Shown piece by piece: positions 27,348 to 42,113 of a stretch of DNA of 46,369 nucleotides (its first letter is position 1; every line of letters starts with the position of its first letter). This stretch comes from Hellea sp. GTDB taxonomy: Bacteria > Pseudomonadota > Alphaproteobacteria > Caulobacterales > Maricaulaceae. The position numbers were made by a program, and so were the translations under genes. Where the stretch lies: assembly GCA_020629135.1 (NCBI GenBank), contig JAHDDX010000012.1:1-46369 (forward strand), given 5' to 3'. The notes beneath the pieces are model-generated. The model ran no database searches. It was not told the origin of the DNA and worked only from the letters and a program-made list of their open reading frames with translations.

Positions 27348-28733
27348 ATGCGAACATTACTTAGACAATTGGAATCATGGCTGAGGCTGAGCCGGTTTGA
27401 ACGAACCAGTGACCTGATGCGTGCCCGTATCATTTACATTATTTGCGGGGCGTTTGTGTTCACTCAGGTGATCAATCTATTTGCTATGACCCGTCTTTAC
27501 GGCGGATGGACGTTCGATCACAATTTATCATTGGGTGCGATCACCTTTGTAGTCATGCTGACGGCGGCTCTCCGGTTCACCGATAATTTTCACATCCAGG
27601 CTTTGGGAATATTCACGTTTACTTGGGCTGCGATTATCGCGTCAGCGACGTCTGAAGGAACCGGGATCAATAGTGCACTCCTCCCATTCATTCCTATTGG
27701 AATAGTCATGGCCGGATCAATTTCAGGTTGGATCATGTCCTATGTGGCAGGGGCACTTTCATTGTTATTAATCGTCTATCTGCATCAGTATTCCTCTCAG
27801 GTCCCTCCAGGACATATCTTTGACCCAAATGTCTTTGCTGAACGCAATACAGCGCGCGCTGTTCAAATCGCGATGGCAACCGTCATGACCTCTATCATGA
27901 CCGGTTTAATCAGTTTGAACATGTATAAGGCCTTGCGACGTCTTGAGAAAATTGTTCACCAAACCCGCGAAGACGAAAGGTCCAAGACAGAGTTCCTGGC
28001 CAATATGGGCCGTGAAATTCATGCGCCGCTTCAGGGCATTCAAGACGTCAGCGACCGGTTACTCCATACCCATCTTAACGCCGATCAACATCAATACGCT
28101 AAGATTATCAAAGATTGCAGTGCAAGTCTGAGCGCGATTGCCGAAGATGTGTTAGATTACACCAAGATAGACGCGGCTTGCCTGACCTTACAACCGAGCC
28201 GTTTTAATATCCGGGAATTGGCGCGATCTCTGGTCTTTCTACACTATCCGTCGACAGCGCGAAAAGGACTAAAGCTCCATTTGCAGATTGATCGTAAAAC
28301 GCCCGAATATATTTTCGGCGATGAAAGCCGGATACGCCAGGTCATCAATAATCTTCTGAGTAATGCGATTAAATTCACGCGTGATGGTGAGATTACTTTG
28401 CTGATTGGCGGTAAAGTTCAAAAGGGTTCTCGGTTTTTACTACATGTTTGCGTTCAAGATACTGGCATTGGAATACGAAAAGAAAATTATCAACGCATTT
28501 TCGAACGCTTTTTCAAAGCAAGCTCAATGCCCGAGGGAGCCAATCCAGGTACCGGCTTGGGACTATCGATTTCCAAAGATATTGTTGAGCTCATGGGCGG
28601 TAAATTGAAAGTTCAAAGCGCTAACGGAGACGGATCCAAATTTTTCTTCACTATTCCAGTTGATATAACTGAAGCGCACCAGGACACAGCCGCTCCAGAC
28701 CCTAAACCTTCTCAATTTTCGCAAGTGGCTTAG
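27348..28733 (+). CDS. Membrane histidine-kinase-like protein lacking the phospho-acceptor histidine
   Basis: A 461-residue protein with six predicted membrane helices in residues 25-195, then a short linker helix, a HisKA-like DHp domain (about 205-280) and a HATPase domain (about 315-445). The H box reads FLANMGREIHAPLQGIQDVS. Against the usual NMSHEIRTPLNGI the phospho-acceptor is Arg222 (CGT at 28011-28013), and the usual Arg is His225. All ATP-binding motifs are intact: INNLLSNAIKFT, DTGIGI and GTGLGLSI. The membrane part resembles MHYT/MASE-like sensor regions but I cannot assign a family. No receiver domain or adjacent regulator is found. It may be a pseudokinase or allosteric sensor; His225 as an alternative acceptor cannot be excluded. 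The 3' end overlaps the convergent iorA-like gene by four bases. Confidence 0.85.
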   Translation: MRTLLRQLESWLRLSRFERTSDLMRARIIYIICGAFVFTQVINLFAMTRLYGGWTFDHNLSLGAITFVVMLTAALRFTDNFHIQALGIFTFTWAAIIASATSEGTGINSALLPFIPIGIVMAGSISGWIMSYVAGALSLLLIVYLHQYSSQVPPGHIFDPNVFAERNTARAVQIAMATVMTSIMTGLISLNMYKALRRLEKIVHQTREDERSKTEFLANMGREIHAPLQGIQDVSDRLLHTHLNADQHQYAKIIKDCSASLSAIAEDVLDYTKIDAACLTLQPSRFNIRELARSLVFLHYPSTARKGLKLHLQIDRKTPEYIFGDESRIRQVINNLLSNAIKFTRDGEITLLIGGKVQKGSRFLLHVCVQDTGIGIRKENYQRIFERFFKASSMPEGANPGTGLGLSISKDIVELMGGKLKVQSANGDGSKFFFTIPVDITEAHQDTAAPDPKPSQFSQVA

Positions 28734-29185
28734 AGTTTTTTCGCCGCGTCTTTTATCGCTTGCCGGATCCGCATATAAGACGCGCAGCGACAGATATTTC
28801 CACTCATCGCGTCATCAATATCACCATCAGACGGATTGGCATTATTCGCCAGAAGATTGACCGCCGACATGATCTGACCCGACTGGCAGTATCCGCATTG
28901 CGGCACATCGATCGCCTCCCAGGCCGCCTGAATGACCGCAGCTTGCCGTGAAGACAGCCCCTCAATCGTTACGATATCTGTACCTTCAACATCTTCATGA
29001 GCGGTAATGCACGACCGGATCGGTTGCCCGTCAACATGTACGGTGCAGGCGCCGCATTGTGCGATCCCACATCCAAATTTTGTGCCCGTCATACCGAGAT
29101 GATCCCGCAACACCCACAATAATGGCGTGCCTTCAGCGGCATCGACGGCTTGGGATTTTCCATTTATTTTTAACAAAACAGCCAT
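28730..29185 (-). CDS. Isoquinoline 1-oxidoreductase alpha-subunit-like [2Fe-2S] protein
   Basis: A 151-residue small subunit of a xanthine-dehydrogenase-family molybdenum hydroxylase. It binds two [2Fe-2S] clusters: a plant-ferredoxin-type cluster with KFGCGIAQCGACTVHVDG and the distal Cys in IRSCIT, and a second, helical cluster with QCGYCQSGQIMSA and GNICRCASY. No FAD domain is fused, as in the IorA type, so electrons must go to an external acceptor such as a cytochrome or quinone. The ATG follows the stop of the large-subunit gene by four bases, with a GGGGAGGGG ribosome site. The substrate cannot be fixed by sequence; isoquinoline is only the name of the characterised relative. Confidence 0.9.
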   Translation of the reverse strand: MAVLLKINGKSQAVDAAEGTPLLWVLRDHLGMTGTKFGCGIAQCGACTVHVDGQPIRSCITAHEDVEGTDIVTIEGLSSRQAAVIQAAWEAIDVPQCGYCQSGQIMSAVNLLANNANPSDGDIDDAMSGNICRCASYMRIRQAIKDAAKKL

Positions 29186-29189
29186 GGCC

Positions 29190-31532
29190 CTACCCCTCCC
29201 CGGTTAAATTAAGATGGTCGGATTGACCGAGAATAGGCATTCGCCTGAACCGTTTACCAGTTGCGGCAAAAATCGCATTGGCAATTGCCGGGGCAGCCGG
29301 TGGTGTGCCAGGTTCACCCACACCACCCGGCGGGGCGTCGCTCTCCATTATATGAACCTCCATGGCCCGTGGGGCTTCGCGCATGCGCATGACCCGCCAA
29401 TCAGGGAAATTTGTCTGCTGGACGACGCCGTCTTTGGCGGTGATTTCACCATAGAGCGCATTTGAAATACCAAACAGGGTGCCGCCTTCCATTTGAGCCT
29501 TTGTATGGCGCGGATTAACGACGGTACCGGCATCGAGCGCAACCCAGACATTAGGGATAGTGATCCGACCTTCATCATCCACATCGACTTCAACGCAAGT
29601 GGCGACATAGGACAAAAATGACCGATGCGCCGAAATACCCATACCTCGGCCCTGCGGCAGATCGCGTCCCCACCCCGCCATTTCGGCGGCTTTTTCGATT
29701 ACTGCCTTCAACCGGGCCGTATCGATCGGATATTCCTCAAGCGAACGGCCATAATTCGGATATATGGCACCGTCCGTTGTCGGGTCCCAATTACGATCTG
29801 AGCCAATCAATTCAATTAGATAGTCTTTGGAATCTCGTCCCGCCGCGTGGGCGAGTTCATCGGCAAAACTGCCGACGGCAAAATGATGATAAACATTGGC
29901 CACCGATCTCAACCAGCCAATGCGCAAATGGGCCTCGGCCTTACCAATTTCGACCTGCATATTCGGCGCGGCAACAGGCGCGTCGGTAGCACCGAGTGAC
30001 AATTCAAATTCGGATCCTTGGTCCACGCCCGCAGCAAATGTTGAATTAATAGATGGAAAGGCGCTTCGGTGTAGCCATGCTGTGGTTTGGCCATTCTCAT
30101 CCAGAGCTGCTTCCATATGTTGTGCGCTCACGGCGTGAAAATAACCATGCTTCAGATCATCTTCCCGCGTCCAGGTCACTTTCACCGCTTGACCCATTTC
30201 ACGTGCGATCAAAGCAGCTTCAACCACAAAATCCGCTTTGGATTTGCGGCCAAAACCCCCGCCAAGCCAGGTGACATTTATCGTGACATTTTCTTCGGGA
30301 ACACCGCAGACCTGGGCGACCGTCCGGCGGGCGGCCTGTGGAGCCTGCGTACACGCCCAGCATTCGACCTTGTCGCCGTCCCATTTGGCGGTTGCGGCCG
30401 GAGGCTCCATTGGGGATTGAGACAGATGTGCCGCGTAATAATCTGCGCTGACCATCTTAGAGGCCTGAGCAAGTTGAGACGAGACATCACCGCGACGCAA
30501 CTTCACGTCGCCGGGCTTATTGACGGCTTCCGTCAAAGCCGCCGCATATTCATCAGAATTATAAGTTTCGTTGGGGCCAGCGTCCCATTCAACCTGCAAA
30601 GCCTCGCGCCCCTGGATCGCAGCCCAGGTGTCCTTAGCGACAATGGCTATGCCACCGACCTGTTGAAAACCAATGGCGTCCCCTTGCGGCGCAGGCAGCT
30701 CCAAGACTTTGACAACCCCGGCTATCGCCAGGGCATCATCAGGGTTAAATGATTTTACCTTTCCCCAAACGGTCGGCGGGCGAGCAATCACGGCGTTCAG
30801 CATATTGGGCAATCTTACATCAATCCCAAATATACCTTCGCCTCTAACAATTTTCGGCACTGTGACTGACGGCATAGATTGGCCGATATAGCGCCAATCT
30901 TTGCGGTCCTTTATAACCACGTCTTCTTCCGAGGGGATATCCAGTGCGGCGGCCGCTTTAGCAATTTCTCCATAGCTTATCTTTTTGCCGGACCCATGCC
31001 GTATCACGCCAAGTTCAGAAGAACATTCGGACTTATCCACACCCCACTCATTGGCCGCCGCCTGTTCCAGCATGTGCCGCATTGAGGCGCCCGCACGTCT
31101 GAAATGGATCATATTATTTCGGACGGTCGTCGAGCCATCCGTGTTCTGATCGCCATATTTAGGATGACCAATGGCCTGCGCCAGTTCAACCATATCCCAT
31201 TCGACATCCAACTCATCCGCTATCATTTGGGCGACTGAGGTCAAAGCATGCTGGCCCATTTCTGAGCGTGGGCTGCGAATCTGGATACGGCCATCTTCGG
31301 CAATCGAGATGAAAAGGCCGGGCCCTTCTTCCAGCCCAGAGTTATCCGGGAATTCCGCCAGAGCCTTAGGGGATTCAGATTTCGTTTTTGACTGGCAGGC
31401 TGCCAGACTTAATCCGATGGTCAGGCCCCCTAGCCCGCCCAGAACATGTCGGCGGGTCGGTTTAAATAATATTGGAATATGTTTCGGTTTAGCTGCTTGT
31501 GTAAGATTTTTATTCGCTAAATCCAAAAACAT
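29190..31532 (-). CDS. Molybdopterin-binding large subunit, isoquinoline oxidoreductase beta-subunit-like, with Tat/lipoprotein-type leader
   Basis: A 780-residue large subunit of a xanthine-dehydrogenase-family hydroxylase. The active-site Glu is in the C-terminal GVGEPGTPPAAPAIANA, and molybdopterin-binding regions such as WLGGGFGRKSKADF and AGTVVNPRHTKAQMEGGTLF are present. The leader KPTRRHVLGGLGGLTIGLSL has a twin-arginine pair (Arg27-Arg28) followed by a hydrophobic core and a lipobox LAAC with Cys46, so the complex may be exported folded and lipid-anchored. The start ATG has GGAGG in front. No MoCo insertase (XdhC-like), aldehyde-chaperone or cytochrome subunit is nearby. Upstream of it is a secreted-protein gene, divergent. 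Confidence 0.9.
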   Translation of the reverse strand: MFLDLANKNLTQAAKPKHIPILFKPTRRHVLGGLGGLTIGLSLAACQSKTKSESPKALAEFPDNSGLEEGPGLFISIAEDGRIQIRSPRSEMGQHALTSVAQMIADELDVEWDMVELAQAIGHPKYGDQNTDGSTTVRNNMIHFRRAGASMRHMLEQAAANEWGVDKSECSSELGVIRHGSGKKISYGEIAKAAAALDIPSEEDVVIKDRKDWRYIGQSMPSVTVPKIVRGEGIFGIDVRLPNMLNAVIARPPTVWGKVKSFNPDDALAIAGVVKVLELPAPQGDAIGFQQVGGIAIVAKDTWAAIQGREALQVEWDAGPNETYNSDEYAAALTEAVNKPGDVKLRRGDVSSQLAQASKMVSADYYAAHLSQSPMEPPAATAKWDGDKVECWACTQAPQAARRTVAQVCGVPEENVTINVTWLGGGFGRKSKADFVVEAALIAREMGQAVKVTWTREDDLKHGYFHAVSAQHMEAALDENGQTTAWLHRSAFPSINSTFAAGVDQGSEFELSLGATDAPVAAPNMQVEIGKAEAHLRIGWLRSVANVYHHFAVGSFADELAHAAGRDSKDYLIELIGSDRNWDPTTDGAIYPNYGRSLEEYPIDTARLKAVIEKAAEMAGWGRDLPQGRGMGISAHRSFLSYVATCVEVDVDDEGRITIPNVWVALDAGTVVNPRHTKAQMEGGTLFGISNALYGEITAKDGVVQQTNFPDWRVMRMREAPRAMEVHIMESDAPPGGVGEPGTPPAAPAIANAIFAATGKRFRRMPILGQSDHLNLTGEG

Positions 31533-33162: not shown

Positions 33163-34470
33163 TTACCGTTTAATCCGAATAACCTCTTCCACAATCGCAT
33201 CGCCAATATCATCAAAAGCCTTTTCAAGGTCCTCTGAGCGATCAACTGTTTTGAAATATTCTACCCCAGAAGAACAATTGAGCAAGAATTGCTCCGCGTG
33301 GGCTTTTTGAGACGCCGCCACATCATAAGCGATCGTGTAAATTACGGCACCAGCATTTTTCATGGCCGAACAATGTGCCAGAGAACGTCTGTCAAAAAAG
33401 TAGTCCGTTTCACAAACCTGTTTTTCTTCGTAATATCCGTCACTCGCCGGTTCGTGATTCCAGTTCCAATACTTTTTAGGTTGTGAATATTTGACTATTC
33501 TTTGGCCATTGCGTTTAGTTTTCCACCAATATTCTGGCGTCGGATCATCGACCCAAACCTTTTTAGTTTCACATTCTGTTGACGTGTTGTTTGCACCGTC
33601 ACTCATAAACACCAGGAATTTCAGGGGCGCACCCTCACCATTCACCAATTTATGTTGCGCACTTTCAAGCGGAAAAGCAGCTTTAGCTCGTCCTAAAGCA
33701 CCGCTGGAATCGGTCCCAACTCGATCTTGCATCCGTGTAATTGTATGGGGTGTCAGAACGCCCCATTTAGGATGAATTACATGACTAGGGATAAGACCAT
33801 CATCTTCGATATCAGAATAGCGATTATTCGGATCTGCGCTAAATGGATATAAGGCGGTTCGAAAAATATCGTTTTTTTGCTTGGCCTGTAGAGTTTGCAA
33901 TTTGACCATGAAGGACTGCAAATTATTTTTGAGCGTTATGCTTTTCTTTTTGCCCGCCTTGTCCAGGTACCCCATGGATCCCGAATTATCGACGACAAAG
34001 AATACGCTGGCGGGGGTACCTTCGACTTTTGAATAGGTCACATCAGAGACCGCATTAATTGAAATGGTCTTGTGGCCAAACGCAGCCATAAACATGGTTC
34101 TGTAATCACCGCTCACTGTGGCCCGCGCCAACAATCGATCATCCCCATCCGCAATATCATATTTGACAGATGCCAACATATTTCCAGTAAAATCATGGGT
34201 CGGACCAGCTATTTGCGAATATTTGTAAAGCTTGCCTTCAATCGGACGATTTGGGTCGTCACGATCCACGGCCGCGGAGGCACTCAAGGCCAGACTATCT
34301 GCAGCCGTTTGTGCCAATTGTTTGGCATGATAAACCCGCATGCTGTCGACGACACAGCCCATCGCCATAATGATAACAGTCAGGCATAACGCCCAGACCA
34401 ATGCAAAAGTTCCCTGATTGTCTTCCAGCCAGCCCAACAGCTTGTGCCGGATACGCATGACGTATCCCAT
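33163..34470 (-). CDS. TadG-like pilus assembly protein with von Willebrand factor A domain
   Basis: A 435-residue protein beginning with a TadE/TadG-like N-terminal helix: LEDNQGTFALVWALCLTVII, then AMGCVVDSMRVYHAKQLAQTAADSLALSA. This is the family leader of Flp pilus minor pilins. The C-terminal two thirds is a VWA domain with the MIDAS DNSGS at about residues 161-165, and later SDGANN and a threonine-containing TIAYDV region; Cys residues are spread around 295-400. Start: I choose the ATG at 34470 over a GTG three codons upstream because AGGTGG stands well placed before it. TadG proteins act at the cell surface in tight-adherence pili; the tad/cpa genes are about 8 kb away. Confidence 0.82.
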   Translation of the reverse strand: MGYVMRIRHKLLGWLEDNQGTFALVWALCLTVIIMAMGCVVDSMRVYHAKQLAQTAADSLALSASAAVDRDDPNRPIEGKLYKYSQIAGPTHDFTGNMLASVKYDIADGDDRLLARATVSGDYRTMFMAAFGHKTISINAVSDVTYSKVEGTPASVFFVVDNSGSMGYLDKAGKKKSITLKNNLQSFMVKLQTLQAKQKNDIFRTALYPFSADPNNRYSDIEDDGLIPSHVIHPKWGVLTPHTITRMQDRVGTDSSGALGRAKAAFPLESAQHKLVNGEGAPLKFLVFMSDGANNTSTECETKKVWVDDPTPEYWWKTKRNGQRIVKYSQPKKYWNWNHEPASDGYYEEKQVCETDYFFDRRSLAHCSAMKNAGAVIYTIAYDVAASQKAHAEQFLLNCSSGVEYFKTVDRSEDLEKAFDDIGDAIVEEVIRIKR

Positions 34471-34553
34471 TTTTCCCACCTAAGATTTCCCAACACTTTG
34501 GTGGTTAATTCGAACATATAAATATTGGCTTCAAAATCGAAGTTAAAGAATGC

Positions 34554-35273
34554 CTAATTCCTATCTTGGGAATCTAACTGTGATCGCGAATATTTAATAG
34601 CAGCTCGCGCCAATAAATCGACGCTGTCAAAGACTGGGCGTTCTGTTTGAATCTGTGGCCCAAGCATTGAAAATTCAGAACATCCGATCAAAAAACCATC
34701 AACGCCTGCCTCTGTCAGTTCGGAAATATATTCCTCCATATCCCGGACAGTGTGTTCCGAAACGCCGTTAGATTTGATATCCCGAATAGTCGTCAGAACC
34801 TTATCTGAGTTTTGAGGATAAACGGCTGCCAAGTCGTAGCGATCAAACGCTTTTTGAAACACGCGGCACTGATCCGTGATGGGCGAGGCCAACATACCAA
34901 TTTTGGTGTCCCTTTCAAAAATATCAAATAATTGGCACGCGGCCAACTCAACCATGTTTAAAAAAGGTATTGTTAAATCCTGAATGATTTCCTCAGAATA
35001 ATAATGCGCCGTATTACACGGCATTACAATCGCGTGAGCCCCGTTATCTTCTAAGCGTTTGGCCATTTGCGCCAATACACGTCCGGGATCAGCGCTGCCC
35101 TTTTCCGTTAGGGCCGCAATGCGCGACGGTATTTGAGGGTTCATATCAATTAGTAATGGAATGTGATCCTGATCATCGGATACGGATGTCAGGGCAATTA
35201 ATCGGTTTTGAAACCAGGCGGTTGCCGCTGGCCCCATCCCGCCAATTACACCGATTGTTTTATAAGAACCCAT
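34554..35273 (-). CDS. Aspartate/glutamate racemase family protein
   Basis: A 239-residue cytoplasmic enzyme with the two catalytic cysteines of the family: Cys86 in IVMPCNTAHYY and a second in FLIGCSEFSML at about residue 200; the N-terminal KTIGVIGGMGPAATAWF is the standard beginning of aspartate-racemase proteins. The reaction is a cofactor-free epimerisation at the alpha carbon of acidic amino acids. Start: the ATG at 35273, two bases after the stop of the upstream CuyA-like gene; a longer frame extends into that gene. Because the upstream gene resembles L-cysteate sulfo-lyase and cysteate is a sulfonate analogue of aspartate, interconversion of cysteate enantiomers is a plausible but untested role. 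Confidence 0.85.
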   Translation of the reverse strand: MGSYKTIGVIGGMGPAATAWFQNRLIALTSVSDDQDHIPLLIDMNPQIPSRIAALTEKGSADPGRVLAQMAKRLEDNGAHAIVMPCNTAHYYSEEIIQDLTIPFLNMVELAACQLFDIFERDTKIGMLASPITDQCRVFQKAFDRYDLAAVYPQNSDKVLTTIRDIKSNGVSEHTVRDMEEYISELTEAGVDGFLIGCSEFSMLGPQIQTERPVFDSVDLLARAAIKYSRSQLDSQDRN

Positions 35274-35275
35274 GT

Positions 35276-36307
35276 CTACCGGCCAGCCGGAACCTGCCAC
35301 ATTTGATCCATATCAAAGGCCCAGTCATAACCAAATAAACCCACCGAACCACCTGTGTGGATGAAAACAATAATTTCATCTTTTTTGAAAAATCCTGTCC
35401 GAACCAGGTCAATTAAGCCCGCCGCCCCTTTGGCTGAATAAACCGGATCCAACAAAATGCCCTCAAGTTCAGCAAATAGTTTGATGGCTTCCTGCCCGGC
35501 CTCGGAAGGAACCCCATAACCGTCACCGACATAATCCGTATTGGCGACAATATCGGATCGCTCCATCATGCCCGGGCATCCCAGCTTCTCCGCGGTCGCA
35601 ACGGCTAACTCAAATATCTTTTCTTCTTGTTTGTGGCGGATCGCATTCGTGCCAATCCCAAGTAATGGAATTTGCGCATTCATGGCTTTAAGTCCGACGG
35701 CAAGGCCCGCCTGCGTCCCGGCGCTGCCTGTTGCATGGACAATATGGTCCACCTTCAAATGCCGATCATTAAACTGGCCCAGCATTTCAAAAGCGCAATT
35801 TACATATCCTAAGGCCCCTGTTGGATTAGAACCACCGCCGGGTATGGTGTAAACGGATTTGCCTGTGGCGCGAATATCATTGGCCCGCTTCTCAAGCTCG
35901 GCATTCATATTCAGGTTTTCACCTTTTATTTTTTCGGTTGTTGCACCGTGCAAATGATCCAGAAGAACGTTTCCACTATGATTGTAATTTGGATTGTTTG
36001 ACCCGGTCCGGTCCTCGAGCAATATATGGCAAGGAATACCGACTTTGGCCGCGAACGCCGCCGTTTGACGACAATGATTAGATTGCGTCGCGCCCTGGGT
36101 CATCACAAGGTCAGCTCCCGCCAGCTCCGCTTCAGCCATTAAAAATTCAAGCTTACGCGTTTTATTGCCACCGGTTGACAGACCCGTGCAGTCATCACGC
36201 TTGATCCAGATTTCAGGCCCGCCGAGCGCTTTACTCAGTCGATCCATTTTCTCAAGAGGCGTTGGCAAATGCGCTAAAAAACGTCTTGGGTAGCGAGATA
36301 AAAGCAT
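35276..36307 (-). CDS. L-cysteate sulfo-lyase / D-cysteine desulfhydrase family PLP enzyme (CuyA-like)
   Basis: A 343-residue fold-type II PLP enzyme. PLP-lysine is Lys49 in [47 protein letters not shown] and [20 protein letters not shown] are the family signatures, with [14 protein letters not shown] near the end. The opening [20 protein letters not shown] and [18 protein letters not shown] are close to what I remember for CuyA of Ruegeria, so sulfite-releasing L-cysteate lyase is my first choice; D-cysteine desulfhydrase or ACC deaminase are the other family activities. The ATG at 36307 has GGAGG at ideal distance. Followed two bases later by the racemase-like gene. No sulfonate transporter is nearby. 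Confidence 0.75.
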
Positions 36308-36373
36308 GAAACCTCCGATATGTGCCCTCACCTTTTAGCGTGCCTTGCATAAAAGTGAACGCAGAATATAGCG

Positions 36374-36390
36374 CGCAATAACCGATTGCG
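36374..36390. promoter_or_regulatory. Inverted repeat upstream of the CuyA-like gene
   Basis: CGCAAT-N5-ATTGCG, a perfect 6-bp dyad, 67 bases before the CuyA-like start in the 244-base spacer shared with the divergent M23 peptidase gene. A regulator site is possible; nothing else in this spacer is recognisable except the ribosome sites at either end. Confidence 0.25.
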
Positions 36391-36551
36391 GTTTAAGACG
36401 TGATCCAGCTTACAGTTATCAGAATGTCGTGCGGCTACAATTGATACAATTTTTCAAAGGACAGTTTGATCTTTTTGGATTATCAAAACTCAGGATCGGC
36501 GTTCGATTTAAATCTCTAGATAATAGAGGGCGCAAAATAAGGAGATAAATC

Positions 36552-37616
36552 ATGGCGTTGTCACGCAACATCTTTTCTATTGTTTCAGTTTTAGCTTTAA
36601 CCACCAGTTCAGCGCTCGCCGCGCCTCCTCCCGGAAAAGGCGGCGGAAACAATAACAATGGACCTCTGGACCTGCCGAGCGCGTTTGAGGCCATGCAAGC
36701 GGACACTATTTGGTCGGTTCCTAACTCGCCGCAGGACCATATTTCCTCCACGTTTGGACCTCGGATTAAATCCTCTTCCAACGCCTATGACTGGCATCGT
36801 GGGCTGGATATTCACGGCGAAATTGGCGATCCCATTTTATCAGCCTATGACGGGGAGTTTGTCGGAATTCGAAATTATACGAGTGGTGGTACGACCGTAA
36901 TTATTGAGCATCAATTTCCTGAACCGGTCGAATTTCAGGGTCACCAAATCACGACCTGGTATACGCTTTACATGCATATGGACGAAGTAGCGGCCTATTT
37001 GGTCACTGCCGACTCGAATGATGAACATCCGATCATTGCCGCAGGCGATCAGATCGGTACGGTTGGCATGACCGGATCTACGGTGAATCCGCATCTTCAC
37101 CAAGAGATCCGGGTTGGATCCCGATGTTCATTGGAATATCAATTGGACAATCCTAACTCGGGGTGTTCAGGGCTTTTTTTCGACCCTCATGTCCATCCTT
37201 TGTTTCTTCAGCCAGAGACAGAAAACGGGCTTAGCCTAAGTGTCAGCACCTCACTCACAGCTTTGGAAGACGGCGTGATTGAGATCTCAAGCGAGGATCA
37301 ATATCCTGATATTAACCGGTATGAGTTTCAAATTCGCGATCGCAAAAATGTGCGCGCATCCTATGTGCTGGATTTAAATGAACGAACCGGTTTTGACGCG
37401 ACGACGAACGATATCCTCGATATTCCAGATGAAACAAAACCTTATTTATCCCCGGTTCCATTTGGATATACCGCTGATCACTGGACAACCTATTTGGTCA
37501 TACCCGCTAGTTTTGTCACGAATAAAAACAATGGTGAAAGTTTTCGGGTCATCGCAACCGATATCTGGGGTAATGAGCAATCTATCAATTTTGGCGATAA
37601 GAAAGTCAGTTGGTAA
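36552..37616 (+). CDS. Secreted M23 (LytM/lysostaphin-type) metalloendopeptidase
   Basis: A 354-residue exported protein with a signal peptide (MALSRNIFSIVSVLALTTSS, cleavage probably after ALAA). A low-complexity glycine/asparagine stretch follows. The M23 domain at about residues 60-220 has the zinc site His82 and Asp86 in DWHRGLDIHG, His142 in YMHMD, and His181/His183 in NPHLHQEIR. All these residues are present, so it is likely an active peptidoglycan-type endopeptidase or a related periplasmic hydrolase. The C-terminal 130 residues form a beta-rich region with no clear family. AAGGAG stands before the ATG. Single-gene unit, divergent from the CuyA-like gene. Confidence 0.9.
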   Translation: MALSRNIFSIVSVLALTTSSALAAPPPGKGGGNNNNGPLDLPSAFEAMQADTIWSVPNSPQDHISSTFGPRIKSSSNAYDWHRGLDIHGEIGDPILSAYDGEFVGIRNYTSGGTTVIIEHQFPEPVEFQGHQITTWYTLYMHMDEVAAYLVTADSNDEHPIIAAGDQIGTVGMTGSTVNPHLHQEIRVGSRCSLEYQLDNPNSGCSGLFFDPHVHPLFLQPETENGLSLSVSTSLTALEDGVIEISSEDQYPDINRYEFQIRDRKNVRASYVLDLNERTGFDATTNDILDIPDETKPYLSPVPFGYTADHWTTYLVIPASFVTNKNNGESFRVIATDIWGNEQSINFGDKKVSW

Positions 37617-37927: not shown

Positions 37928-39292
37928 GTGTCCGAAGATAAACAAATCGCTGATATCAAAGCCTGGCTCGCAGAGCGCCGGATTACAGATGTCGAATGCG
38001 TTGTTCCTGACGTGGCCGGGACGGCGCGCGGGAAATCCATGAATGCGTCTTTATTTATAGACGGATTAATAAATGGATCGCTGCGGCTGCCGGAAATTAT
38101 TTATACCATCTCCGCTCATGGTGACACGGTCTTTAATGAGCGCGTATCCTCGACCGAGAAAGACCTACGTCTTGACCCGGACATGTCGACTTTTGTCGAA
38201 GTGCCCTGGAGCCTAGAAAAAGCGGCCAGTGTGATCTGCGACGGGATTAATGACAAGGATGATACACCGTCCAATCTTGCACCGCGCCAGATTTTAAAAC
38301 ATGTCGTCAGCCTGTTTGAAGCCAAAGGCTGGACGCCGATTGTCGGGCCAGAAGCCGAATTTTATCTGCTGGATATGACGGCGACGAAAACGACCGTGCC
38401 GACACCGCCTGAGGGAAGTTCGGAAACCCGCGAGCACGGACAATATATTTATTCCCTGGATGCGGTGGAAGAATTTTCAGCCCTGTTCAAAGAGCTTTAT
38501 GAGTTTTCAGAAATTCAGAACATCGACCTGCAGACGCTGATCCATGAGGACGGTCCCTGTCAATTTGAGATCAATATCGGACACGGCGAAGCCTTGTCCG
38601 TCGCCGACCAATTATTTCTATTCAAACGTCTGGCCCGGCAAACCGCTAAACGCCATGATCTGTTTATCTCTTTTATGGCCAAGCCCTATGCGGATGACAG
38701 CGGCAGTTCGATCCATTTGCATCAAAGCGTCATTGATAAAAAAACGGGCAAAAACCTGTTCGCGGATAAGGACGGCGAAGACACAGAATTATTTGGCCAC
38801 TATGTCGGCGGACTGCAGAAATATATTTCTGAGGCCATGCTGATGTTTGCGCCCTATTCCAATTCCTATCAGCGCTTCAAAGCCTATATGAGCGCCCCCA
38901 CCAACACACATTGGAGCCGCGAAAACCGAACCGTTGGCTTACGCGTCCCCGAAAGCAGTCCATCCGGACGCCGGATTGAAAACCGGATTCCCGGCGCCGA
39001 TATCAATCCGTATCTGGGAATCGCCGCGTCACTTTTGTGCGGTTATGCGGGCATGGTTGAAAAAGTTGAGCGGCGCGAAGAATTTACGGGCGAAGCCTAT
39101 CAGGAAACAGATTACACCCTGCCTAAAAATATCACGGCCGGCATACGAAACTTTCAGAAATCCAAAATGCTTCGCAAATATCTGGGCGATGATTTTGTTG
39201 AGACCTTTGCCGAGATCAAAGAAACCGAAAATGAGGACCGCTCTTCCATGTTAAATCCGTGGGATAAGCGGTTCCTTCTGACCAATGTGTAG
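37928..39292 (+). CDS. puuA: Glutamine synthetase family protein, probable gamma-glutamylpolyamine synthetase
   Basis: A 454-residue class I glutamine synthetase homologue that likely ligates glutamate to putrescine or another polyamine. The GTG start has GGAG five bases upstream. The beta-grasp N-terminal domain (about 10-110) has VPDVAGTARGKSM instead of the ammonia-site loop of GlnA; the catalytic domain shows IVGPEAEFYLLD, GPCQFEINIGHGEAL, DDSGSSIHLHQS and RENRTVGLRVPESS. There is no adenylylation-tyrosine motif near the C-terminus. The co-directional aminotransferase and aldehyde dehydrogenase genes support the polyamine role (gap 9 bases to the next gene). Alternative: a GlnA3-type enzyme for other amines. 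Confidence 0.82.
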   Translation: MSEDKQIADIKAWLAERRITDVECVVPDVAGTARGKSMNASLFIDGLINGSLRLPEIIYTISAHGDTVFNERVSSTEKDLRLDPDMSTFVEVPWSLEKAASVICDGINDKDDTPSNLAPRQILKHVVSLFEAKGWTPIVGPEAEFYLLDMTATKTTVPTPPEGSSETREHGQYIYSLDAVEEFSALFKELYEFSEIQNIDLQTLIHEDGPCQFEINIGHGEALSVADQLFLFKRLARQTAKRHDLFISFMAKPYADDSGSSIHLHQSVIDKKTGKNLFADKDGEDTELFGHYVGGLQKYISEAMLMFAPYSNSYQRFKAYMSAPTNTHWSRENRTVGLRVPESSPSGRRIENRIPGADINPYLGIAASLLCGYAGMVEKVERREEFTGEAYQETDYTLPKNITAGIRNFQKSKMLRKYLGDDFVETFAEIKETENEDRSSMLNPWDKRFLLTNV

Positions 39293-39301
39293 GATCGAAG
39301 T

Positions 39302-40684
39302 ATGACCGAACAATCCTCAAACTTTACCCGCCATATTCAAGAACTGGATAACGCCCATCACCTGCATCCGTTCACGACCCACCACGCATTGCGCAAAAAA
39401 AATCCACGGGTCATCGTCGGCGCCGACGGCGTTTATATCAAAGATTCCGAAGGGGTTAAAATCCTGGACGCCATGTCCGGCCTGTGGTGTGTCAATCTTG
39501 GCTATGGGCGCGACGAACTGGTCGAAGCGGGACGCAAGGCCCTCGATGAAAACCCTTACTACAATACTTTTTTCCAAACCACGACGCCGCCAGCCGCCGT
39601 CCTCGCTCAAAAAATAGCGGAAAAAACGCCGGGTGATCTGGATCATATCTTCTTTGCCTCTTCCGGATCTGAGGCCAATGACACCGGGATCAAACTGATC
39701 TGGTATTACAACAACCTCAAAGGTCGCCCCAACAAGAAAGCCATTATCAGCCGGAAATCCGCTTATCATGGCTCAACCATTATGGCCGCCAGTTTGACCG
39801 GCCTGTCTGGTATGCATGAAAAGTTTGACTGCCCCCGCCCCGGCTTTCATCACATTGAACCGACACCTTGCGCTTATCGTTTTGCTGAGCCCGGTGAAAG
39901 CGAAGAGGATTTCGCAAGCCGGTGTGCACAGGCGCTCGAAGACAAAATTTTGGAACTTGGCGCGGATAACGTCGCCGCCTTTATCGGCGAACCGATCATG
40001 GGCGCAGGTGGCCTGATGGTGCCGCCGACCGGTTACTGGCAAAAAATACGAGCGATCTGTGACAAATATGATGTGATTTTATGGGCCGACGAAGTGATTT
40101 GCGGCTTTGGCCGAACCGGATCCTGGTTCGGGTCTCAGACTTATGATTTCCAGCCTGATATGCTGACCATGGCCAAAGGCCTCTCCAATGGATATCAGCC
40201 GATTTCCGCCCTCGCACTGAATGACGAAATCGGTCACACCCTGATCAATGCGGATTATGAAATGGCCCATGGCTACACCTATTCAGGCCATCCGGTCGCC
40301 GCCAGCGTTGCGATTAAAACCCTGGAGTTATACGAAACGACAGGGGCGATTGGTGAGGCAGGCGCTGAACATAGCGATTATTTTCAGGCTCGGATTCGCG
40401 AGCTGGCTGACCATCCAATTGTTGGCGAGGTTCGCGGCGTCGGTTTCCTCGGAGCCGTTGAGCTGGTTTCCGACAAAGACAGCAAATCCCGTTTCCAACC
40501 CGATGGCAGCGCCGGCTATGCCTGCCGCGAACATTGCTTCAGCTCAGGTTTAATCGCCCGTGCCGTCGGTGACGTCATGATCATGGCACCGCCATTAGTG
40601 ATCTCAAAATCAGAAATTGACGAGCTCTATGAAAAATTGCGATCCTGTCTGGATAAGACCTGGAACGACCTGACAGGAGCCTAA
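39302..40684 (+). CDS. spuC: Class III aminotransferase, probable putrescine-pyruvate aminotransferase (SpuC-like)
   Basis: A 460-residue PLP enzyme. The Schiff-base lysine is Lys292 in MAKGLSNGYQPIS, the PLP-binding Asp is in WADEVICGFGRTG, and FFASSGSEANDTGIKL, IGEPIMGAGGLMVPP and SAYHGSTIMAAS are the class III motifs. Opening sequence HHLHPFTTHHALRKKNPRVI is typical of the SpuC/beta-alanine:pyruvate-type omega-aminotransferases. It would convert putrescine to 4-aminobutanal, or a related diamine or omega-amino acid. It lies between the PuuA-like and aldehyde dehydrogenase genes, nearly touching both (nine bases and one base), so it is part of a single operon. Confidence 0.86.
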   Translation: MTEQSSNFTRHIQELDNAHHLHPFTTHHALRKKNPRVIVGADGVYIKDSEGVKILDAMSGLWCVNLGYGRDELVEAGRKALDENPYYNTFFQTTTPPAAVLAQKIAEKTPGDLDHIFFASSGSEANDTGIKLIWYYNNLKGRPNKKAIISRKSAYHGSTIMAASLTGLSGMHEKFDCPRPGFHHIEPTPCAYRFAEPGESEEDFASRCAQALEDKILELGADNVAAFIGEPIMGAGGLMVPPTGYWQKIRAICDKYDVILWADEVICGFGRTGSWFGSQTYDFQPDMLTMAKGLSNGYQPISALALNDEIGHTLINADYEMAHGYTYSGHPVAASVAIKTLELYETTGAIGEAGAEHSDYFQARIRELADHPIVGEVRGVGFLGAVELVSDKDSKSRFQPDGSAGYACREHCFSSGLIARAVGDVMIMAPPLVISKSEIDELYEKLRSCLDKTWNDLTGA

Positions 40685-40685
40685 A

Positions 40686-42113
40686 ATGAATACGGATCAG
40701 TTTTATATTAACGGCCAATGGGTCGATCCCCAAGGCACCGCTACACATGCCGTGATCAATCCCGCGACCGGAAAATCCGTTGCCGAAATCCCGCTGGGCA
40801 ATTCGGAAGATGTTGACGCTGCCGTCGCGGCCGCCAAAGCCGCCTTCCCGTCCTATGCCCGGACAACGATAGCCGAGCGTAAAGAATTGATCGGCGCGAT
40901 TAATGCAAGTTTGATGAAACGCAATGATGAAATTGCCGCCGCGATCACCCAGGAAATGGGCGCACCGGTCGGACTGTCCCGGGCGGCTCAGGCTCCGTCC
41001 GGCCCGCAGCATTTTAGCGAAGTTCTTAAGGTTCTGGATGAGTATGAATTTGACCGTACGATCGGACGCTCCAAAATTCGCAAAGAACCGATCGGTGTTT
41101 GCGGCCTGATCACCCCTTGGAACTGGCCTATGAACCAGATGGCGACCAAAGTGGCTCCGGCTCTGGCCGCTGGCTGCACCATGTTGCTTAAGCCGTCTGA
41201 AAACGCGCCGCTTGACGCGATCATCCTTACCGAGATCATCCACGAAGCGGGCGTTCCCGCGGGTGTGTTTAACCTGGTTCACGGGGACGGCCCCGGGGTC
41301 GGATCGGCCCTGACCGGGCATAAAGATATTGATATGGTGTCCTTTACCGGCTCAACCCGGGCCGGGGTACTGATTTCGCAAAACTCTGCGCCGACCATTA
41401 AACGCGTAGCGCTGGAACTTGGTGGGAAGTCACCCTCTATCATTCTTGAGAATTCAGATATTGCCCGCTCTGTTGCTGGCACGGTGAAATCCTGCATGGG
41501 CAATTCGGGGCAATCCTGTAACGCACCGACCTTGATGTTTGTGCCTGCCGCTCATTACGAGCAAGCCTGCGAAATCGCCAAACAAGCCGCGGGCGCCGCA
41601 ATTGTCGGCGACCCCAATTCACCGGACACCCATTTGGGCCCAATTGCCAATCGCGGTCAATTTGAAAAGGTCAAAGAATTGATCCAAAGCGGCATTGATC
41701 AAGGCGCTCGTCTTTTGGTCGGCGGCCCCGACCATCCCGACGGTTGTGACCCGGACGGCTTTTTTGTCCGACCAACTGTATTTGCCGACGTCACGCCAGA
41801 TATGCGCGTTTTTCAGGAAGAAATTTTTGGCCCGGTCATTTGCCTGATGCCTTACAATTCGATTGATGACGCCATCGCCCAGGGCAATCTGACCGAATAC
41901 GGCCTGTCCAGCTATGTCTGGGGTAATGACGAGGCGGAATGCCTCGATGTCGCCGCCCAGATCCGCGCCGGCATGGTGCATATTAACGGCGCCTCCCTCG
42001 ACGCTGCTGCGCCTTTTGGTGGGTATAAAATGTCCGGCAATGGCCGGGAATGGGGTGAATATGGCCTCGATGAATTCCTTGAGACCAAGGCGATTTATCA
42101 AAAAGCGGGATAG
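40686..42113 (+). CDS. NAD(P)+-dependent aldehyde dehydrogenase
   Basis: A 475-residue aldehyde dehydrogenase with the catalytic Cys278 in GNSGQSCNAPTL and catalytic Glu in RVALELGGKSP; the cofactor-binding region reads TPWNWPMNQMATKVAPALAA and FTGSTRAGVLI. It probably oxidises the omega-amino aldehyde formed by the SpuC-like enzyme, for example 4-aminobutanal to GABA. ACAGGAG precedes the ATG, and only one base separates it from the previous stop. Sequence is not the usual PuuC type and the substrate is inferred from the operon. Last gene of the operon. Confidence 0.88.
   Translation: MNTDQFYINGQWVDPQGTATHAVINPATGKSVAEIPLGNSEDVDAAVAAAKAAFPSYARTTIAERKELIGAINASLMKRNDEIAAAITQEMGAPVGLSRAAQAPSGPQHFSEVLKVLDEYEFDRTIGRSKIRKEPIGVCGLITPWNWPMNQMATKVAPALAAGCTMLLKPSENAPLDAIILTEIIHEAGVPAGVFNLVHGDGPGVGSALTGHKDIDMVSFTGSTRAGVLISQNSAPTIKRVALELGGKSPSIILENSDIARSVAGTVKSCMGNSGQSCNAPTLMFVPAAHYEQACEIAKQAAGAAIVGDPNSPDTHLGPIANRGQFEKVKELIQSGIDQGARLLVGGPDHPDGCDPDGFFVRPTVFADVTPDMRVFQEEIFGPVICLMPYNSIDDAIAQGNLTEYGLSSYVWGNDEAECLDVAAQIRAGMVHINGASLDAAAPFGGYKMSGNGREWGEYGLDEFLETKAIYQKAG

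Follow-up and report, generated by a model that had tools for sequence, protein, structure and literature searches.

A cuyA-cuyB gene pair predicted to break down cysteate in a probably marine member of the Caulobacterales

Two adjoining genes of Hellea sp. (Caulobacterales; Maricaulaceae), one encoding a PLP-dependent enzyme and the other a protein of the Asp/Glu racemase family, raise the question of which substrate they share and in which direction the racemase would feed its partner. Based on curated protein models, residue alignments and comparisons of gene order, we propose that the pair very probably forms a two-gene operon, cuyA-cuyB, that serves to break down cysteate and in which L-cysteate is turned into D-cysteate prior to cleavage. 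CuyB, a cofactor-independent two-cysteine racemase, would interconvert L- and D-cysteate, whereas CuyA, a PLP-dependent enzyme that shares its fold with D-cysteine desulfhydrase and ACC deaminase, would eliminate sulfite from D-cysteate, and the aminoacrylate left behind would fall apart to pyruvate and ammonia. The sulfite would presumably be assimilated or exported. We infer that the two genes are co-transcribed, that cleavage proceeds through this elimination mechanism and that the route operates in this organism. The substrates and the stereopreference of the pair are taken from homology and from the summary that one paper (PMC11382572) gives of another.

The window, i.e. the whole stretch of 46,369 nucleotides that was analysed, is contig C41 of a 2.76-Mb genome that is 85% complete. 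Both genes lie on the minus strand, with cuyA, the predicted PLP-dependent D-cysteate sulfo-lyase, at 35276..36307 (ATG start, 343 aa), and cuyB, the predicted cysteate racemase of the Asp/Glu racemase family, at 34554..35273 (ATG start, 239 aa). The cuyA stop and the cuyB ATG are separated by 2 nt, bearing out the spacing and the exact span given in the preliminary description. An alternative cuyB start, the GTG at 35300 that was chosen in the mechanical list of open reading frames, would overlap cuyA. Direct reading reveals a ribosome-binding-site-like GGAGG immediately before the cuyA ATG. The intergenic stretch upstream of cuyA (36308..36551), common to cuyA and a divergent M23 peptidase gene (36552-37616, plus strand), contains no regulator gene, and on the cuyB side the pair is flanked by a gene for a TadG/VWA-type protein (33163-34479, minus strand). 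Among the genes adjoining cuyA-cuyB in the window, none was recognised as encoding a transporter, a regulator, an exporter or another sulfonate- or sulfite-related protein.

CuyA matches the NCBIfam model NF052482, "D-cysteate sulfo-lyase", with 513.9 bits against a cut-off of 450 (model positions 1-331 of 332, E = 1.3e-154), and has the PALP fold (Pfam E = 8.2e-56). It is 78% identical to the Ruegeria pomeroyi DSS-3 megaplasmid protein SPO_RS20630 (residues 1-337) and 77% identical to CuyA of Roseovarius nubinhibens. The PLP-lysine motif (K49) is intact, and K49, S76 and Y290 are kept in 79/79 rows from named genomes and in 57/57 rows from the order, the latter including genomes fetched twice; T318 is found in 79/79 and 56/57 rows, respectively, with one gap. 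These rows represent 79 of the 80 named and 57 of the 58 order loci, the others being too short or lacking a complete CuyA. A quick, midpoint-rooted tree of 135 rows, in which many of the forks are weak, groups the window protein with two Caulobacterales relatives (support 99) inside an 82-row clade that also holds the R. pomeroyi and R. nubinhibens proteins.

CuyB in turn matches NF052483, "cysteate racemase", with 249.1 bits against a cut-off of 190 (model positions 1-224 of 225, E = 5e-74), and carries an Asp_Glu_race domain (Pfam 7.1e-33). With both proteins over their NCBIfam cut-offs, the earlier assignment of a CuyA-type sulfo-lyase paired with an aspartate-racemase-family protein that acts on cysteate is supported, and a chance pair of reading frames is ruled out by the E-values of the two matches. 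The best solved chain for CuyB is 1JFL (E = 9.5e-35), the aspartate racemase of P. horikoshii. C86 (in PCNTAH) and C198 (in GCSE) align to C82/C194 of 1JFL and are presumably the catalytic cysteines of the Asp/Glu racemase family, in agreement with the preliminary description, which had noted both. The likeness extends to the equivalents of Arg48/Lys164 of 1JFL; C86/C198, R51 and K167 of CuyB are invariant in 74/74 related racemase rows, some of which come from one genome fetched twice. At position 43, in contrast, 1JFL has Phe where 73/74 rows of CuyB relatives have Asp. Compared to the two loci with the nearest CuyA relatives, identity is only 47-48% for the window CuyB but 81-83% for CuyA, and we considered whether the racemase is a foreign partner. 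This was rejected, as fast divergence of CuyB is general in the linked loci: among 26 of them, the median pairwise identity is 47% for CuyB and 82% for CuyA.

The association of the two genes was analysed with the curated cut-offs in 398 sampled genomes of the window's order and in 14 control genomes. Only one of the 14 controls holds a protein over the CuyA cut-off, and likewise one over the CuyB cut-off. Within the order, CuyA is found in 96 genomes and CuyB in 99; both occur in 91, CuyA only in 5 and CuyB only in 8 (Fisher p = 2e-73, kinship ignored). The co-occurrence check put forward in the preliminary description is thus strongly positive, with CuyB present in 91 of the 96 CuyA genomes. 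Two of the five CuyA-only genomes have partial racemase matches below the cut-off (154.8 bits in G174, 180.2 bits in G225). Measured between the edges of the HMM matches, 60 of the 91 genomes with both have cuyB following cuyA on the same strand within 200 nt; the distance is 200-5000 nt in 27 and slightly above 5 kb in 2, and the genes are far apart in one genome and on different contigs in another. Within the window's family, the genomes over the CuyA cut-off are exactly those over the CuyB cut-off (G000, G247 and G351). In the window's genus, however, the other four genomes of the sample hold neither gene over its cut-off, and the pair is therefore accessory.

Linkage is also seen in named genomes. 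Of 80 loci with a close CuyA orthologue, 25 are directly followed downstream on the same strand by a homologue of CuyB (tblastn, E values up to 1e-5), within 200 nt in 20 of these and with one gene between in the other 5. The fetched flanks of the remaining 55 loci, less than 2.1 kb long on the downstream side in L090, L105, L129, L139 and L153, contain no CuyB homologue. For 50 of these 55, the genome was searched: CuyB is over the cut-off at some place in 36, which may still be the next gene where a CuyA locus ends near a contig edge, and was not found over the cut-off in 14. Distances between CuyA proteins and between CuyB proteins correlate over 65 loci (Mantel r = 0.73, 0/999 permutations as high, kinship ignored). 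We note that the 14 genomes, and in addition G060, have a close CuyA orthologue without CuyB over the cut-off; possible reasons are that their CuyA acts on L-cysteate, that a different racemase or source of D-cysteate supplies it, or that the genomes are incomplete.

The chemistry assigned to the pair is already in print. As stated in PMC11382572 (Chem Sci 2024), the L- and D-forms of cysteate are interconverted by CuyB, and CuyA prefers the D-form, which it converts to pyruvate, ammonia and sulfite, the same products as predicted in the preliminary description; PMC11382572 cites two papers for this, one being Liu et al. 2024 (J Biol Chem 300:107371). Beyond PMC11382572, no further CuyB paper was found by title in our literature search. 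The direction proposed earlier, from D- to L-cysteate with cleavage of the L-form, is probably wrong, as the summary in PMC11382572 and the NCBIfam names give conversion of L to D and cleavage of D. Likewise, the remark that no established D-cysteate pathway of this type exists is outdated in view of PMC11382572 and its citation of Liu et al. 2024. The core idea was therefore already known, having been published with the racemase working in the opposite direction, L to D, and the pair in the window is an ordinary new example of the published CuyA-CuyB module.

The reverse direction nevertheless deserves weighing, namely an L-specific CuyA with a racemase that salvages D-cysteate by converting it to L-cysteate. 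CuyA was originally described as an L-cysteate sulfo-lyase, as seen from a 2006 title in reference lists and from the gene table in PMC4334477. A reversible racemase would fit either direction, and the 14 genomes in which an unaccompanied CuyA has no CuyB over the cut-off also count in favour of this reading. On the other hand, D-cysteine desulfhydrases, the relatives of CuyA, are specific for D-amino acids, and the curated name of the NCBIfam model is "D-cysteate sulfo-lyase". Together with the preference for D-cysteate summarized in 2024 (PMC11382572), this leaves an L-specific CuyA improbable. About equally improbable is that the PLP enzyme is a D-cysteine desulfhydrase yielding sulfide and pyruvate, with a racemase that supplies D-cysteine or acts on aspartate. 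That name is used in plasmid records for CuyA proteins, even for the R. pomeroyi one (NC_006569.1 173964-174983), and the broad subfamily model TIGR01275, "D-cysteine desulfhydrase family", is matched over its cut-off by the window protein (320 bits, cut-off 289.4). Moreover, 7YSK, a PDB protein with the name D-cysteine desulfhydrase, matches the CuyA model with 554.3 bits. However, CuyA stays far below the cut-offs of three D-cysteine desulfhydrase equivalogs (PRK03910; 297/429, 287.8/610 and 282.6/469), the racemase linked to it is over the cut-off for cysteate racemase, and some relatives adjoin genes for sulfonate uptake, HisD/HpsN-like proteins and sulfite exporters.

Use of D-cysteine as a side substrate of CuyA is quite possible. 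CuyA is able to act as a D-cysteine desulfhydrase according to a passage in PMC10507020, and the models alone leave room for this substrate, since the CuyA model accepts 7YSK and the window protein passes TIGR01275. None of the sequence markers tested in the residue alignment separates cysteate from D-cysteine specificity. Position 291 was tried as such a marker, being Ser in 79/79 named rows and in 7YSK and Thr in the D-cysteine desulfhydrase 4D8T, and was rejected: it splits the CuyB-linked order proteins both ways (32 Thr and 25 Ser in 57 rows, both kinds adjoined by CuyB). The same position bears on the third reading, in which an ACC (1-aminocyclopropane-1-carboxylate) deaminase happens to lie beside an unrelated racemase. 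ACC deaminases have Glu at the equivalent of position 291, where the window protein has Ser following Y290. Although the fold is the same and ACC deaminase chains match at up to 217 bits, CuyA reaches just 230 bits against the TIGR01274 cut-off of 392, and its pairing with CuyB also argues against this reading, to which we give hardly any weight. Counting against the favoured cysteate operon itself are the lack of an identified sulfonate gene beside the pair, the 85% completeness of the source genome and the 14 of 50 CuyA genomes without CuyB over the cut-off.

A close known counterpart of the window CuyA is that of R. pomeroyi DSS-3. In the updated annotation reported in PMC4334477, SPOA0158 is listed as cuyA, beside the sulfite exporter gene cuyZ and cuyR; we equate SPO_RS20630 with SPOA0158 by its place beside exporter and LysR genes. 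The R. pomeroyi CuyA, in addition to its high identity to the window protein, belongs to the same NCBIfam equivalog, with 553 bits. Its gene, however, adjoins cuyZ, the LysR gene cuyR and a TRAP transporter, which the window pair is without, and the racemase that matches the CuyB model lies about 113 kb from cuyA on the same megaplasmid, as opposed to 2 nt downstream. This racemase, SPO_RS20085 (L166:8998-9696; NC_006569.1 59846-60544), reaches 276.4 bits against the CuyB cut-off of 190 and is, judged by sequence, a candidate for the R. pomeroyi cysteate racemase, the gene for which is called unknown in PMC11382572. The comparison hence yields candidates for two R. pomeroyi genes described as unknown in that paper, the cysteate racemase and, as a type of enzyme only (DegT-like), the sulfopyruvate-to-cysteate aminotransferase. 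With the window locus, the published module is also seen beyond the roseobacters, in marine Caulobacterales, here as what appears to be a bare two-gene operon.

In some relatives the pair adjoins genes for an ABC transporter of the taurine-type sulfonate class, for a homologue of histidinol dehydrogenase and for exporters of the TauE/SafE or cuyZ family. On plasmid p449297 of Paracoccus seriniphilus, the order is ABC transporter - cuyA - aminotransferase - cuyB - 'hisD', with a TauE/SafE gene approximately 7 kb further on, while plasmid unnamed3 of Ruegeria sp. SCSIO 43209 has ABC transporter (divergent) - LysR - cuyA - cuyB - 'hisD'. Both share the order and strand of cuyA and cuyB with the window, but also carry the ABC transporter and the homologue of histidinol dehydrogenase, and the Paracoccus plasmid has a DegT-type aminotransferase as well; the window has the two genes only. 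The P. seriniphilus substrate-binding protein is closest to taurine/sulfonate models, below their cut-offs, and the aminotransferase has its best matches among DegT-type sugar aminotransferase models, again below their cut-offs. The 'hisD' copies of both plasmids pass the general hisD model and would, we infer, be HpsN, the DHPS dehydrogenase of the histidinol-dehydrogenase superfamily. Across the flanks of the named loci (tblastn), a HisD-like gene is found in 7/25 linked versus 1/55 unlinked loci, an aminotransferase in 5/25 versus 1/55, and cuyZ in 7/25 versus 13/55. A DegT-type aminotransferase gene between cuyA and cuyB is seen at L177:5796-7004 (P. seriniphilus) and in L091, L096, L104, L143 and L162 (5/25 linked named loci); by gene order in these relatives only, it may serve the sulfopyruvate-to-cysteate step. 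Clustering of gene families over 20 neighbourhoods and the window returned few shared neighbours beyond the pair, with some cuyA and cuyB genes lost to the open-reading-frame picker or the length rule.

The preliminary description had also pointed to sulfite exporter and oxidase genes as a check, which was applied to the source genome and, for exporters only, to the flanks of the 80 named loci. Exporter families are present in the source genome and in some of the flanks. In the source genome, which is 85% complete, family searches detected two TauE/SafE proteins, one cuyZ-family protein on another contig (36% identical to R. pomeroyi CuyZ) and one protein of the sulfite/nitrite-reductase type, but no molybdenum sulfite oxidase of the SorA type (PF00174). 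The only histidinol dehydrogenase found leaves no further candidate for HpsN, and the one Ldh_2 protein (188.5/500) is far below the sulfolactate-dehydrogenase cut-off. Xsc gives no match in the source genome, while all 14 control genomes give sub-cut-off matches to this thiamine-enzyme model; such total silence is odd and may stem from the missing part of the genome or from the first-pass filter. Gene absences in this genome are weak, as 15% of it is missing. The likeliest use of the pair is uptake of cysteate as such, with the sulfite assimilated or exported. More tentatively, and with considerable doubt, the pair could be a stand-alone two-gene module in this member of the marine Caulobacterales, gained apart from DHPS/sulfolactate clusters, by which cysteate of either hand is scavenged for nitrogen, pyruvate and reduced sulfur, the sulfite going to the cell's own sulfite-reductase-type protein with no dedicated oxidising or exporting neighbour.

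Contig C22 of the same genome carries an operon-like run (L174:1386-9553) of genes for an IOR-family ketoacid oxidoreductase, an FMN 2-hydroxyacid dehydrogenase, an acyl-CoA-dehydrogenase homologue, a cuyZ/YeiH-family exporter and an MFS transporter. As pure speculation, these genes might provide a route of the sulfolactate type, with desulfonation of a sulfoacyl-CoA by the acyl-CoA-dehydrogenase homologue. The same cluster was not seen in two plasmid searches with one neighbourhood from each.

How the pair arrived is not traceable from its surroundings, because the M23 peptidase gene has no useful homologue in eight family genomes: the search for an empty site by flank synteny returned one weak match in these eight (E = 4.4e-4). 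Two further gene groups in the window were noted in passing. On the plus strand, 37928-42113 holds in a row genes for a glutamine-synthetase-like protein, a class III aminotransferase and an aldehyde dehydrogenase, which might serve polyamine breakdown of the gamma-glutamylputrescine type; the first of these proteins scores 165.7 against a cut-off of 650, far below the model of that type. On the minus strand, 28730-31532 encodes a 2Fe-2S subunit together with a large subunit of the molybdopterin type that has a signal-like stretch at its N-terminus, a pair that, by reading of the translations, resembles secreted enzymes of the xanthine-dehydrogenase/isoquinoline-oxidoreductase type.
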